A stretch of 64,000 nucleotides of DNA, from assembly GCF_013184775.1 (NCBI RefSeq), contig NZ_JAATVV010000010.1:124001-188000 (forward strand). Reading direction: 5' to 3'. The position numbers and the translations under genes were made by a program. Below, piece by piece: positions 25,529 through 30,617 of this stretch (its first letter is position 1; every line of letters starts with the position of its first letter). The DNA is from Martelella sp. HB161492 (GTDB lineage Bacteria; Pseudomonadota; Alphaproteobacteria; Rhizobiales; Rhizobiaceae). A model generated the notes under the pieces. The model did no database searches. It had not been told where the DNA came from and worked only from the letters and a program-made list of their open reading frames with translations.

Positions 25529-25812
25529 GGTGAAAATTTCCCTACATGGACTTGAGCGCGGTCAAACAGTCATCTAAATCGATTGATATGATGCGTTGAC
25601 TTGGAAATGACGGGAGAGCCGCCCGCCCGATGCCGTTTGTTGTCAAACCTGGCCTTGCGTCCGGCGCCTTTTATTGCCAACAGTCATGCAACAAACATCA
25701 CAGCGCGCTATCCCTCGGATAGGGCGTTGCTGCTGTTATAGCGGCCCGGGAGGCTCGCCGCGCCCGACCGTTCAAAATGGGTTTGCCGGCAAGAGATATG
25801 AAGGAAATCATC

Positions 25813-26769
25813 ATGACCTCTAAACTTGACCAATTGCGCGAAATGACCACGGTTGTTGCCGATACCGGCGACATTGAAGCGGTTGCCCGGATCAAGCCGG
25901 TCGATTGCACCACCAATCCCAGCATCGTTCTGAAGGCGCTTTCGACCGAAATGTTCGCCGATGCCGTTGAAAGTGCTGTCAAGTGGGGCAAAAGCCAGGG
26001 CGGCGACAAGGAAGCTGTCATCGGCGCCGTCGCCAGCCGTCTTGCCATCGATGTCGGCGAAGCGCTGGTCAAGATCGTTCCCGGCCGCGTTTCGACCGAA
26101 GTTGATGCCGACCTGTCCTTCAATGTCGCGGCGTCGATTGACAAGGCGCATGAAATCATCGCTGCCTATGAGGCGCGCGGGATTACCCGCGATCGCATCC
26201 TGATCAAGCTTGCCTCCACCTGGGAAGGTATCCGCGCCTGCGAAGTGCTGCAGAAGGAAGGCATTGACTGCAATCTGACGCTGCTGTTCTCCAAGTGCCA
26301 GGCCATTGCCTGCGCTGATGCCGGCGCATTTCTGATCTCGCCCTTCGTCGGCCGCATCCTCGACTGGTACAAGAAGGACACTGGCGAAACCTACACGACC
26401 GAAACCGATCCCGGCGTGCTTTCCGTCCGCTCGATCTACAACTACTACAAGTCCAACGGCATCAAGACCGTCGTCATGGGCGCTTCCTTCCGCAATATCG
26501 GCGAAATCGAAGGTCTGGCCGGCTGCGACCGTCTGACCATCGCGCCGAACCTGCTTGAAGAGCTCGCCAATGACCAGGGCGATCTGCCGCGGGTGCTGTC
26601 GCCGGAAAAGATCACCGACGAGCCCAAGGTCGACATGGACGAGAAGACGTTCCGCTGGATGCTGAACGAGGATGCCATGGCCACCGAGAAGCTGGCAGAG
26701 GGTATCCGCAACTTTGCCAAGGACCTCGGCAAGCTGCGCACCATCGTTTCTGCCAAGCTTGATGCCTGA
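25813..26769 (+). CDS. tal: Transaldolase
   Basis: This 318-residue TalB-type transaldolase exchanges dihydroxyacetone units between sedoheptulose-7-P/GAP and erythrose-4-P/F6P. The Schiff-base Lys lies in [26 protein letters not shown] and [18 protein letters not shown] are family signatures. The ATG at 25813 has AAGGAAATC upstream. The 284 bp before it contain no gene; a small CTATCC/GGATAG hairpin at about 25708-25722 is the only structure seen. A clear terminator follows. Confidence 0.97.
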
Positions 26770-26798
26770 TTTCAGCAAAGTTCGGTAACAAATCGAAG

Positions 26799-26828
26799 GG
26801 CCTGACGGTTTTCGTCAGGCCTTTTTTT
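26799..26828 (+). terminator. Rho-independent terminator of transaldolase
   Basis: GGCCTGACG-GTTTT-CGTCAGGCC followed by seven T. Confidence 0.95.
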
Positions 26829-27111
26829 AATCCCGATCAACCGGATTTCAGGTTTTTTTTGCCAGATCTGATTTTTTTCAAGCTTGGCCAGCTATTGTCA
26901 GGTGCTGCTGTTCACATCTTTGGCAATTGCAGATTAAATATTTAGAATCAGTAATATAGCGGATGAGGGCGTGGCGTAGGCGCGTGACCATAGTTCGTGC
27001 ATTTGCTTATTCTTTGGGCGCATTCACAGATTTTGTGAACAATGCGGTTACAATTTTCGACTTGTTAAGGCAGCTTCCCCTTCCTATTTAATCAATCGAA
27101 CAAACGAACAA
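26829..27111 (+). promoter_or_regulatory. AT-rich promoter region of the small-protein array
   Basis: No gene is seen here. The stretch is distinctly AT-rich against its surroundings. It contains a palindrome TTCACA-GATTT-TGTGAA at 27023-27039, about 120 bp before the first small gene, that could bind a regulator. A promoter is expected between it and 27111, but the -35/-10 elements are not clear enough to name. Confidence 0.45.
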
Positions 27112-27140
27112 GTGCAGCACGGCACGAACCGAGCCTGCAC
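27112..27140 (+). promoter_or_regulatory. Leader stem-loop of small gene 1
   Basis: GTGCAG / CTGCAC arms are separated by 17 nt. The stem ends 4 nt (ACCC) before the AAGGAG ribosome site. Confidence 0.55.
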
Positions 27141-27156
27141 ACCCAAGGAGATGGAA

Positions 27157-27396
27157 ATGACCAAGATTATTGCTTCGCTCGCCGTTGTCTCAAGCATTGC
27201 GCTTGCTCCGGCTGCTTTCGCCGCTCAGCCTGTTTCCCCGGTTGCCCCCGATGCCAGCCACCTGACCAAGTCGCCCGCTGGCAGCGTCGTCGAGATTTCC
27301 GGCCAGAACCAGTATGGCAACACGACCAATTACGTCTACAAGGTTCAGCAGGACGGCTCGCTGAAGCTCGTCTTTGCGGCTCAGCAGAACGACTGA
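27157..27396 (+). CDS. Small secreted protein, tandem family copy 1
   Basis: This 79-residue protein of unknown function has a Sec signal peptide (about residues 1-22, ending AAFAAQ) and a mature part of about 57 residues. The mature part has the family core HLTKSPAGSVVEISGQNQYG then GNTTNYVYKVQQDGSLKLV. It lacks cysteine. The ATG at 27157 is 6 nt after AAGGAG; the ATG at 27151 abuts the ribosome site and is unlikely. It is the first of five co-directional paralogs. I do not recognise the family; the beta-strand-like repeats suggest a small periplasmic or secreted beta protein. Confidence 0.85.
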   Translation: MTKIIASLAVVSSIALAPAAFAAQPVSPVAPDASHLTKSPAGSVVEISGQNQYGNTTNYVYKVQQDGSLKLVFAAQQND

Positions 27397-27425
27397 TTGA
27401 TCTTGTAACAAATCGGAACTCTAAT

Positions 27426-27452
27426 CGCTGTGCCCCGTTTTATGGAACAGCG
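27426..27452 (+). promoter_or_regulatory. Leader stem-loop of small gene 2
   Basis: CGCTGT / ACAGCG arms with a 15-nt loop lie 8 nt before AAGGAG. The stem sequence is unrelated to that of copies 1 or 3-5. Confidence 0.5.
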
Positions 27453-27473
27453 AGGCAAATAAGGAGCATCATC

Positions 27474-27722
27474 ATGAATAAGCTGATTGCATCCGCTGCA
27501 TTTGCTGCCGCTCTTGTCGCAGCCCCGTTCGCCTTTGCCGCCCAGTCAGACAACCCGGTGGCACCGGATGCGGCACATCTGACCAAATCGCCTCCGGGCA
27601 GCTTGGTCACGATCGTCGGCACGAACAACGCCGGTAATGAGACCAATTTCTACTATCGCGTCCAGCCTGATGGCTCGTTGAAGCTCATCTTCCAGGAAGC
27701 GATCAACGACAGCGACCGCTGA
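27474..27722 (+). CDS. Small secreted protein, tandem family copy 2 (most divergent)
   Basis: This 82-residue protein has a signal peptide (residues 1-22, AAPFAFAAQ) and a family core with changes: HLTKSPPGSLVTIVGTNNAG and NETNFYYRVQPDGSLKLIF. It ends in NDSDR, close to the TDSDN ends of copies 3 and 4. It is more divergent than the others, so it probably separated earlier or evolves under a different constraint. AAGGAG lies 7 nt before the ATG. Confidence 0.85.
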   Translation: MNKLIASAAFAAALVAAPFAFAAQSDNPVAPDAAHLTKSPPGSLVTIVGTNNAGNETNFYYRVQPDGSLKLIFQEAINDSDR

Positions 27723-27765
27723 TCTTCAGGGCTCTGGCCCTGCAAAGATCCCCGTCGCCTCGATG

Positions 27766-27801
27766 GCTCCCGATCAAGCCCCGGTCACAGAGGGTGGGAG
27801 C
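27766..27801 (+). promoter_or_regulatory. Leader stem-loop of small gene 3
   Basis: GCTCCC / GGGAGC arms with a 24-nt loop lie 4 nt (ACCC) before AAGGAG. Confidence 0.6.
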
Positions 27802-27818
27802 ACCCAAGGAGAGATAAA

Positions 27819-28067
27819 ATGAACATGAAGATTGTATCGGCCGCGCTTGCCGCTGGCCTTATCACTGCCCCTGCCGCTTTTGCCGCCCAGCCGGTTGCTC
27901 CGGTTGCCCCGAATGCGACGCACCTGACCAAGTCCCCTGCCGGCAGCGTTGTCGAAATCACTGGCCAGAACCAGTTCGGCAATGAAACCAACTACGTCTA
28001 CAAGGTTCAGCAGGACGGTTCGCTGAAGCTCGAGTTCCAGAACCCGGTTACCGACAGCGACAACTGA
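27819..28067 (+). CDS. Small secreted protein, tandem family copy 3
   Basis: This 82-residue protein has a signal peptide ending AAFAAQ, then PVAPVAPNATHLTKSPAG, a core like copy 1 and the end NPVTDSDN. It differs from copy 4 at only five positions, four of them in the signal peptide. AAGGAG lies 7 nt before the ATG. Confidence 0.87.
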   Translation: MNMKIVSAALAAGLITAPAAFAAQPVAPVAPNATHLTKSPAGSVVEITGQNQFGNETNYVYKVQQDGSLKLEFQNPVTDSDN

Positions 28068-28113
28068 TCGGCGACGGCGGATGACCGCCGGTCCCGAACC
28101 AAGAACCAATATG

Positions 28114-28149
28114 GCTCCCGATCAAGCCCCGGTCACAGAGGGTGGGAGC
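28114..28149 (+). promoter_or_regulatory. Leader stem-loop of small gene 4
   Basis: It has the same sequence as the copy 3 leader: GCTCCC / GGGAGC, then ACCC and AAGGAG. Confidence 0.6.
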
Positions 28150-28166
28150 ACCCAAGGAGAACGAAC

Positions 28167-28415
28167 ATGAACATGAAGATTGCTTCGGCCGCACTCGTTG
28201 CCGGCCTCATTGCCGCCCCTGCCGCTTTTGCCGCTCAGCCGGTTGCTCCGGTTGCTCCGAATGCGACGCACCTGACCAAGTCCCCTGCCGGCAGCGTTGT
28301 CGAAATCACTGGCCAGAACCAGTTCGGCAATGAAACCAATTACGTCTACAAGGTTCAGCAGGACGGTTCGCTGAAACTCGAGTTCCAGAACACGGTTACC
28401 GACAGCGATAACTGA
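28167..28415 (+). CDS. Small secreted protein, tandem family copy 4
   Basis: This 82-residue protein has a mature part identical to copy 3 except for one residue near the C terminus (NTVTDSDN against NPVTDSDN). This supports recent duplication. No cysteines, no recognised domain. The downstream spacer carries a small GGCGG-ATGA-CCGCC hairpin, also found after copy 3. Confidence 0.87.
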   Translation: MNMKIASAALVAGLIAAPAAFAAQPVAPVAPNATHLTKSPAGSVVEITGQNQFGNETNYVYKVQQDGSLKLEFQNTVTDSDN

Positions 28416-28461
28416 TCGGCGACGGCGGATGACCGCCGGCCCCGAACCAAGAACCAGTACG

Positions 28462-28497
28462 GCTCCCGATCAAGCCCCGGTCACAGAGGGTGGGAGC
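28462..28497 (+). promoter_or_regulatory. Leader stem-loop of small gene 5
   Basis: Identical in arms and position to those of copies 3 and 4 (GCTCCC / GGGAGC). Confidence 0.6.
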
Positions 28498-28514
28498 ACC
28501 CAAGGAGAACGAAC

Positions 28515-28748
28515 ATGAACATGAAGATTGCTTCGGCCGCACTCGTTGCTGGCCTCATCGCCGCCCCTGCCGCTTTTGCCGCTCAGCCGGTTGCCCCGAA
28601 TGCGACGCACCTGACCAAGTCCCCCGCTGGCAGCGTCGTCGAGATCTCCGGTCAGAACCAGTTCGGCAACACGACCAACTACGTCTACAAGGTCCAGCAG
28701 GACGGTTCGCTGAAGCTTGTCTATCAGGCTCAGCAGACCAACGACTAA
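28515..28748 (+). CDS. Small secreted protein, tandem family copy 5 (mosaic)
   Basis: This 77-residue protein has a signal peptide identical to copy 4, lacks one VAP triplet of the mature N terminus, and has a C-terminal half like copy 1 (VVEISGQNQFG, NTTNYVYKVQQDG, ending AQQTND instead of TDSDN). It looks like a recombinant between copy 4-type and copy 1-type genes. It is followed by a TGCGTCC-TTTT-GGACGCA hairpin and then a convergent terminator. Confidence 0.85.
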   Translation: MNMKIASAALVAGLIAAPAAFAAQPVAPNATHLTKSPAGSVVEISGQNQFGNTTNYVYKVQQDGSLKLVYQAQQTND

Positions 28749-28910
28749 GGCGGCGTGCGTCCTTTTGGACGCATCAGGACGCTTTAACTTATTGAATCGA
28801 CGCATCGTTCTTTTCGAAAATCGATTCCGACTTTCGACCCGATGCGTTGAGGGACTGAATTGATCACCTGGTGTGCCACTGAACGTGCCGGCCTGCCAGG
28901 TGGTCCTTGG

Positions 28911-28936
28911 AAAAAGGCGGCAGACGCCGTCTTTTT
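28911..28936. terminator. Bidirectional intrinsic terminator
   Basis: AAAAAGGCGGC-AGAC-GCCGTCTTTTT forms an 11-bp stem (one G-U) with A-run and T-run flanks. It can end the small-protein array on the plus strand and pgi on the minus strand. Confidence 0.8.
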
Positions 28937-28950
28937 CATCTCCTGGGGAT

Positions 28951-28978
28951 AGCCCGTGGCGGGAAACCGCCACGGGCT
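28951..28978. terminator. GC stem-loop after pgi
   Basis: A 12-bp perfect stem AGCCCGTGGCGG-GAAA-CCGCCACGGGCT lies 13 bp beyond the pgi stop. On the plus strand it is followed by GTTTC. It probably protects or ends the pgi transcript together with the neighbouring terminator. Confidence 0.65.
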
Positions 28979-28991
28979 GTTTCCGTATGTG

Positions 28992-30617
28992 CTATCGCGC
29001 CATTGAAAGCAGGGTTGCGACCAGACCCTTTGTCGAGCTGTCGTGCCCATCGGCGGTCTCGGTCCCGGAGACGACCGGCAGAAGTCCGGTGGCGAGTTCC
29101 TTGCCGAGTTCCACGCCCCACTGATCAAAGGAATTGATGTTGAACAGTGCACCCTCGACAAAGACGCGATGTTCGTAAAGGGCGATCAGTCGGCCAAGCG
29201 CGAAGGGCGTCAGGCTGTCATAGACAAAGGTGATCGACGGGCGGTTGCCGGAGAAGACCCGGTGCGGGCCGATCTTTGCTGCCGTTGCCGCATCGGCGCC
29301 CTTGGCAAGAAGCTGGCCCTTGGCCTCTTCCAGCGAACGGCCCTTCATCAGCGCTTCTGACTGGGCCAGGCAATTGGCCATCAACAGCTGGTGCTGATGC
29401 CTCAGCTTTGGCTCGAAGCCATTGGCGGCGATCATGAATTCGATCGGGATAATATTGGTGCCCTGATGCAGCAGCTGGAAAAAGGCGTGCTGGCCATTGG
29501 TGCCGGGCTCGCCCCAGACGATCGGGCCCGTCGGCGTCGTGACATCCTTGGAATCGATCGTTACCGACTTGCCGTTTGATTCCATATCGAGCTGCTGCAG
29601 ATAGGCGGCAAAGCGCGACAGACGCTGGTCATAGGGAATGACCGCGCGCGACGGATAGCCGAGCACGACGCGCTGGTAAAAGCCGAGAAGGCCCAGCATG
29701 AAGGGCAGGTTCTCACGTGTCGGCGCGGTTCGGAAATGATTGTCCATCGCATGGGCGCCGTCAAGGAAAGCGAGGAAATCCGCCTTGCCGATGGCGATCA
29801 TCAGCGGCAGGCCAATGGCCGACCAGATCGAGTAGCGCCCGCCGACCCAGTCCCAGAAACCGAAGATCCGGTCCGAAGCGATGCCGAATGCGGCCACCTT
29901 GTCGAGTGCCGTTGACACGGCTGCGAAATGGGCGCCGACGGCCTCTTCGCCCAGCGCATCGGCGATGAAGGCGCGCGCCGTCTTGGCATTGGTCATCGTC
30001 TCGATGGTGGTGAAGGTCTTGGAGGCAACGATGAACAGGGTCGTTGCCGGATCAAGTTCCTTGATCGTATCGGCGATATGGGCGCCATCGACATTGGAAA
30101 CATAATGGAGCTTCGGGCCGTCATGGAAGGGCGCCAGCGCCAGCGTGGTCATGGCCGGGCCGAGATCGGAGCCGCCAATGCCGATATTGACGACATCGGT
30201 GAAGGCCTTGCCGGTGGCACCTGACAGGGCGCCGGAGCGGATGGCTTCGGCAAAGACGCCCATGGCATCGAGCACGGCATTGACGTCCGGCATCACATCG
30301 GCGCCATCGACCAGAACCGGTGTGTTCGAGCGGTTGCGCAGCGCGGTATGCAGAACGGCGCGATCCTCGGTCAGGTTGATTTTCTCACCGGCAAACATCG
30401 CCGCACGCTTGCCGGCAACGTCGGCCTTGTCGGCAAGCGTTTCCAGAAGCGCGAGGATCTCGTCATTGACCGCCGATTTGGAGAAGTCCATCACCAGATC
30501 GTCAAAACGGATGCTGTAGCGCGAAAACCGGCCAGGATCGGCGGCAAAAGCGGCGCGCAGGTCGGTCGCGCCGGTCTTTTCGGCGGCCGTCTTTAGCTCT
30601 TGGATGATTGCGTCCAT
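28992..30617 (-). CDS. pgi: Glucose-6-phosphate isomerase
   Basis: This 541-residue enzyme of glycolysis interconverts glucose-6-P and fructose-6-P. Family signatures are present: [30 protein letters not shown], and the C-terminal [19 protein letters not shown] segment. The start ATG at 30617 has AAGGAG upstream. It converges on the small-protein array. Confidence 0.98.

Follow-up and report, generated by a model that had tools for sequence, protein, structure and literature searches.

Tandem genes for small, apparently exported proteins in Martelella: a predicted soluble branch of a mostly lipoprotein Rhizobiaceae family behind an operator-like dyad

The window analyzed here is a stretch of 64,000 nucleotides from Martelella sp. 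HB161492 (contig NZ_JAATVV010000010.1, positions 124,001 to 188,000), in which five small open reading frames (ORFs) follow one another on the + strand: gene 1 (27157-27396, 79 residues, with a signal-peptide-like start), gene 2 (27474-27722, 82 residues, the copy diverging most from the others), gene 3 (27819-28067, 82 residues), gene 4 (28167-28415, 82 residues) and gene 5 (28515-28748, 77 residues). An earlier sequence-only reading had described five tandem, co-directional ORFs of 77-82 residues, with genes 3-5 on an exact 348-bp period, and both descriptions were confirmed. Genes 3-5 begin at intervals of exactly 348 bp and a repeat is detected by Tandem Repeats Finder at 27763-28717 on the + strand (period 348, 2.8 copies, 91% matches), hence the duplicated unit consists of a leader plus a gene. 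The DNA of genes 3-5 is 84-93% identical. The array is flanked by the genes for transaldolase (25777-26769, PF00923) and a convergent phosphoglucose isomerase (28992-30617, PF00342). No terminator was called 3' of gene 5, and Rfam gave no match above any gathering score on 26500-29500.

Signal peptides were assigned to the five proteins by eye, from a K-containing start, a hydrophobic stretch and AFA-A, and cysteine is absent from all five. The claim of Sec-dependent export can be kept as a prediction, drawn from this assignment by eye and from the lipoboxes of relatives described below. The second of the shared motifs reported earlier is present but its spacing needed correction, the proper form being GNxTNxxYxVQxDGSLKL, with one more variable residue than had been claimed. 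The leaders of genes 3-5 (27723-27818, 28068-28166, and 28416-28514) all contain GCTCCC and GGGAGC, which could pair just 5' of the ribosome-binding site. Intergenic hairpins in arrays are slightly stronger than those of controls (mean z -1.78, n = 37, vs. -1.04, n = 44; p 0.003), in a comparison whose rows are not independent and whose sample is the 37 of 45 spacers that lie in Martelella arrays, L009 and seven spacers from two other genera having been left out.

The five ORFs are real genes under purifying selection. Orthologues in M. alba (L041) are collinear with the array and differ at 5 to 15 positions per pair, the Ka/Ks values of the five pairs are 0, 0.10, 0.39, 0.06, and 0.11 (for gene 1, Ka 0 and Ks 0.09), protein 5 is 93% identical to its counterpart, and the family is present in all 13 Martelella genomes searched, so that the array is more than a set of chance ORFs. 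Codon adaptation indices of genes 1-5 are 0.69, 0.63, 0.75, 0.72, and 0.78, compared with a mean of 0.71 for a reference set of 21 ribosomal protein genes (found via PF00238, the remainder named by eye) and 0.58 for 48 long window ORFs, not all of which are certain genes. When sequences were resampled from the codon usage of the window, the values were significant for genes 3, 4, and 5 (0.0085, 0.031, and 0.0045) and not for genes 1 (0.066) and 2 (0.28), and strong expression is therefore supported for part of the array only. The dosage-type role proposed in the sequence-only reading is thus upheld in part, by the retention of arrays throughout the genus and, for genes 3-5 but not for genes 1 and 2, by codon usage resembling that of ribosomal genes.

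A search with a single protein found matches in 13 of 61 genomes, all of them Martelella. The suggestion that copy number and order be followed in related genomes was taken up: the window genome (G000) has five copies, the other 12 (G001-G012) have 3, 3, 6, 4, 3, 2, 5, 3, 3, 3, 3, and 3, so that arrays range from two to six, and all except that of G012 adjoin the transaldolase gene (12/13), with phosphoglucose isomerase within the fetched flank in 7/13. G001, G004, and G005 each have one degenerate last copy (L042 6356-6610, L045 8465-8692, and L046 7204-7458) that retains the signal peptide and has lost the core. Additional family members lie elsewhere in the window genome and in G007. In the window genome, two distant paralogues without a good dyad are neighbors on the - strand of L009 (G000:C1:98000-102500, at 1568-1825 and 2024-2272), and a third (L010/L165, G000:C3, about 29.3 kb) has an exact dyad upstream and faces an AefR-like TetR gene and ilvC, a layout repeated in G007 (L163). 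Two more arrays, of three and two nearly identical copies and with a 14/16 dyad, lie on contigs C48 and C33 of G007 (L049 and L050).

The family had not been recognized in the sequence-only reading, and this was borne out. Searches of Pfam and NCBIfam gave nothing over cut-off for the five proteins, several sub-cut-off matches falling on the signal peptide, and the relatives likewise gave sub-cut-off matches only. PHROGs gave weak matches to families of unknown function (best E 0.0015). In the PDB sequence search one adhesin chain was matched at E 0.00044, no single stretch of it passing alone, and this was taken as chance. A literature search at the level of result listings did not find these genes named and turned up no expression or localization data for them. 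An AlphaFold2 model of the mature gene 4 protein, built on a shallow alignment of 10 sequences, has a mean pLDDT of 75.7 (87-90 in core blocks) and a pTM of 0.53, with a short helix at 12-16 and strands at 22-28, 34-41, and 47-54, and it predicts a mature core that forms a three-stranded antiparallel sheet with a flexible N-terminus. Foldseek gave no PDB match to this model that reached E 0.001, the best being at 0.16.

Relatives are much more widespread. A profile (A1) built from 25 mature sequences, all from Martelella, matched at E 0.01 in 57 genomes (five of them Martelella) among the 297 sampled within the GTDB family, and the counts were unchanged with a wider profile (A3) at E 1e-4. The matches cover 22 of the 109 genera sampled, for a family that no model in the searched copies of Pfam and NCBIfam recognizes over its cut-off. 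Among 297 genomes sampled across the order there were five matches, every one in the same GTDB family. Matching plasmid records numbered 159, which, when grouped by the first word of the record, comprise Rhizobium (126), Ensifer (14), Sinorhizobium (13), and six names with one each, one record being labelled Rhodococcus.

Most of the relatives examined appear to be lipoproteins. A regular expression detects a lipobox in 40 of the 45 relatives fetched from outside arrays and in 2 of 55 Martelella rows, while A1 detects the lipoprotein relatives at E values down to 1e-12 and A3 joins the two branches. Examples that belong to the same family by profile are RL_RS36540 (pRL12, R. johnstonii 3841), which lies near treZ and malQ, and LZK74_26970 (S. 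meliloti Ak57). Such proteins are annotated as hypothetical where seen, and have the core KLTKAPVGSxV...D..G....ETYxIQPDRSLRLV. Like the window proteins they are small and apparently exported, but they have a lipobox rather than a plain signal peptide, and their genes are dispersed singletons or adjacent pairs rather than arrays. The window proteins match the mature-domain profile of this unnamed Rhizobiaceae family of small lipoproteins but lack its lipobox cysteine and, as judged from sequence, they are a soluble branch of it. Soluble tandem arrays also occur in two other genera, in G097 (L126, four copies) and G270 (L127, five copies), most copies being nearly identical within each array. 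In a tree of 110 rows, where columns are few and the bootstrap is unsettled, all Martelella members fall on one side of a single branch (100/100), G097 and G270 cluster together (98/84) apart from Martelella, and each of their arrays is one group. Tandem soluble arrays therefore seem to have at least two origins, one in Martelella and one in the lineage of G097 and G270.

Expression of the bhsA gene is controlled by a TetR-type repressor. The DUF1471 proteins of Enterobacteriaceae (YhcN, BhsA/McbA) are small and periplasmic, have several paralogues per genome and play roles in stress and biofilm formation (PMC4092069), and their fold is described there as having a long helix that joins strands 2 and 3. 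The array proteins are similar in small size and in the number of paralogues (PMC4092069), but Pfam searches at E up to 10 with the five proteins of the array and with 10 relatives did not match DUF1471, and the gene 4 model, given its shallow alignment and mean pLDDT of 75.7, has three strands without a long helix of the type described there. One distant paralogue had a sub-threshold N-terminal match to the NCBIfam McbA model (E 0.077, 13.7 bits, cut-off 110). The array proteins would thus resemble DUF1471 by analogy, in way of life, and differ from it in sequence and in predicted fold.

Ahead of gene 1, a promoter-like site (TTGTTA, 17-bp spacer, TATTTA) was found by eye at 27062-27090 on the + strand, in an arrangement repeated in M. 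alba (L041). A consensus promoter scanner did not call it. The scanner called a sigma-70-like TTGGCA-N17-TAGAAT at 26920-26948 (+), about 210 bp 5' of gene 1. The site found by eye is overlapped, in its -10 region, by an operator-like dyad, TTAATCAATCGAACAA (27088-27103, no strand assigned; G000:C2:151088-151103), which has one mismatch to the 16-bp dyad TTRATCRNNYGATYAA that stands ahead of the leading gene in each of the 13 Martelella arrays with at least 15 of 16 positions matching: the match is 16/16 in 10 of them and 15/16 in the window, G007, and G012, at -68 to -72. In most arrays the dyad sits, by eye, between a CTTGTT -35 element and a TATATC-like -10 element, and in the window and G007 it is shifted such that it overlaps the -10 region. 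Another copy (15/16) is found at -201 to -212 in G001, G004, G005, and G006 (L042, L045, L046, and L047), some 130-145 bp above the promoter dyad, as if for looping.

The exact dyad occurs 23 times in the 13 Martelella genomes, and 18 of these copies precede family members, among which are a paralogue in G000 and another in G007. The other five precede an outer-membrane barrel gene (PF13505; G001, G004, and G005), a PagL-like gene (PF09411; G012), and, about 180 bp from its called start, a PAP2 gene (PF01569; G003), the last two being sites in one genome each. A control with the reversed pattern gave no occurrence in the 13 genomes, although that pattern contains CTAG, which is possibly rare in such genomes. 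A score of 14/16 was reached by one of 189 upstream regions taken as controls, and this is the M. alba array site itself, read from an ORF antisense to transaldolase. Outside Martelella, 1 of 55 upstream regions of family members reaches 14/16, and the exact pattern occurs in 33 of 119 sampled genomes, a background near one site per three genomes, so that a single site means little. Since the window genome itself has about a dozen places with one mismatch, the weight of the window dyad comes from its position and from its relatives. One such one-mismatch dyad lies upstream of a 66-residue ORF with a signal-like start and without the core (L168, G000:C1:508363, 1528-1728, +), and G125 has two exact dyads 200 bp apart (L209, C42:74655 and 74855), with no adjoining family member recognized.

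The barrel gene, which we take to be Omp25-like, has an orthologue in all 13 Martelella genomes. The dyad is exact at only three of these and matches at 14 or more of 16 positions, at -51 to -64, in 10 of the 13, with scores of 13 in G003 and 12 in G000 and G007, and the shared site therefore holds in most of the genus but not in the window species. The 17 other barrel loci that were fetched, of 41 further matches, score at most 12, although in many of them the matched region starts inside the gene and the true upstream region may be shifted. An operator-like dyad common to the array and the barrel gene points to the cell envelope.

A lead to the regulator comes from G097, in which a TetR gene whose product has a CecR-type C-terminal domain (PF09209) is preceded by an exact dyad, starting 33 bp 5' of the called gene start. 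Each of the 13 Martelella genomes has one orthologue of this TetR gene, adjoining a gene for a calcineurin-like phosphoesterase, and the upstream region reaches at least 14/16 in seven of the 13 (five being one near-identical version) and 11 in the window species. This CecR-like protein is perhaps the regulator of the putative operator. Another candidate for this role, the AefR-like TetR gene that is divergent from the C3 paralogue, was set aside, as it lies beside ilvC (PF01450) and its TetR domain begins about 250 bp from the dyad, and CtrA and FNR were set aside on the spacing of their sites. LdtR, a MarR-family activator responsive to small molecules, governs the rhizobial LdtR/LdtP envelope regulon (PMC3999280). 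That system concerns an L,D-transpeptidase, and the footprinted LdtR site is ATATTCCTTGTATTTTAA (PMC3999280). This site differs from the array dyad, and LdtR was rejected as the regulator acting there.

From these features we infer export of the array proteins, a periplasmic location, repression of the array and a function in the envelope. The dyad overlies the promoter, which suggests repression, and a like dyad precedes the barrel gene in most Martelella, so that a role as abundant helpers of the envelope is the most likely one for these proteins. The explanation proposed, which has about an even chance of being correct, is that they are abundant, soluble periplasmic helpers of the envelope, amplified in tandem, repressed through the dyad and made together with outer-membrane changes. 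Each product would comprise a Sec signal peptide and a mature, soluble periplasmic part of about 55-60 residues, and the tandem copies would provide a larger amount of protein. Transcription would probably start ahead of gene 1, a dimeric repressor bound to the 16-bp dyad over the promoter would hold the array down, and the barrel gene with its like dyad would, in most Martelella, link production of the array proteins to changes in the outer membrane. A broader proposal, offered tentatively and with a good deal less confidence, is that they are part of an undescribed envelope system of Rhizobiaceae, in which soluble, amplified branches of a mostly lipoprotein family, arisen at least twice, would in Martelella be under a near-private operator shared with the barrel gene and, in single species, with enzymes that modify lipid A or lipid phosphates. 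Rebuilding of the outer membrane would then be accompanied by a flood of these proteins into the periplasm. Multi-copy small periplasmic proteins are in general poorly understood. A testable operator, gene set and candidate regulator are now proposed for this family, and dosage, operator and outer-membrane gene could all be tested in culturable marine bacteria.

Other explanations were weighed against these helpers of the envelope. It is unlikely that the proteins are released, as extracellular matrix, signals or antagonistic peptides that need a high copy number: their small size, signal-peptide-like start and numerous copies would fit, but 40 of 45 relatives are lipoproteins, the flanking genes encode transaldolase and phosphoglucose isomerase, no gene that would serve immunity, maturation or a dedicated export route was recognized by eye among the neighboring ORFs of the window, and no toxin family was over cut-off (Tox-HDC with protein 4: E 0.016, 15.8 bits, cut-off 21). 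The matrix or signal role put forward by the sequence-only reading obtained no support. The same flanking genes could be taken to mean that the products are accessory proteins linked to carbohydrates and co-selected with both enzymes, given how often these genes accompany the array in Martelella and that treZ and malQ are close to the lipoprotein gene of R. johnstonii. The array, however, has its own promoter-like site and dyad, further arrays and paralogues lie elsewhere, and in G012 the array is away from transaldolase, which makes a carbohydrate link very improbable. Least probable of all, with hardly any weight given to it, is a recent and neutral tandem duplication without functional significance; the similarity of genes 3-5 in DNA, the variation in copy number from two to six across the genus and the degenerate extra copy in three genomes are what it would predict, whereas purifying selection, positional orthology with the array of G007, the codon usage of genes 3-5, and the conservation of the dyad all argue against it.

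Martelella are bacteria of saline habitats, and this fits a further explanation, that the array is an output of an EcfG/RpoE2-type general stress response and its proteins protect the periplasm under stress. A site of the form GGAAC-N16-CGTT is located at 27415-27439 (+), 59 bp 5' of gene 2, and a like site precedes the M. alba copy (L048, G007); GGAAC-N16/17-CGTT is what we take to be the EcfG promoter consensus. Such sites are nevertheless found in only 3 of 110 upstream regions of the family, two of them orthologous, and before the first gene of none of the Martelella arrays. EcfG-wide control of the family was rejected on that count, and the general-stress explanation is judged improbable, on a par with release of the proteins. 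A stress role of the array proteins is possible, on indirect evidence, and the EcfG-like site of gene 2 may place that one copy under a separate stress control.
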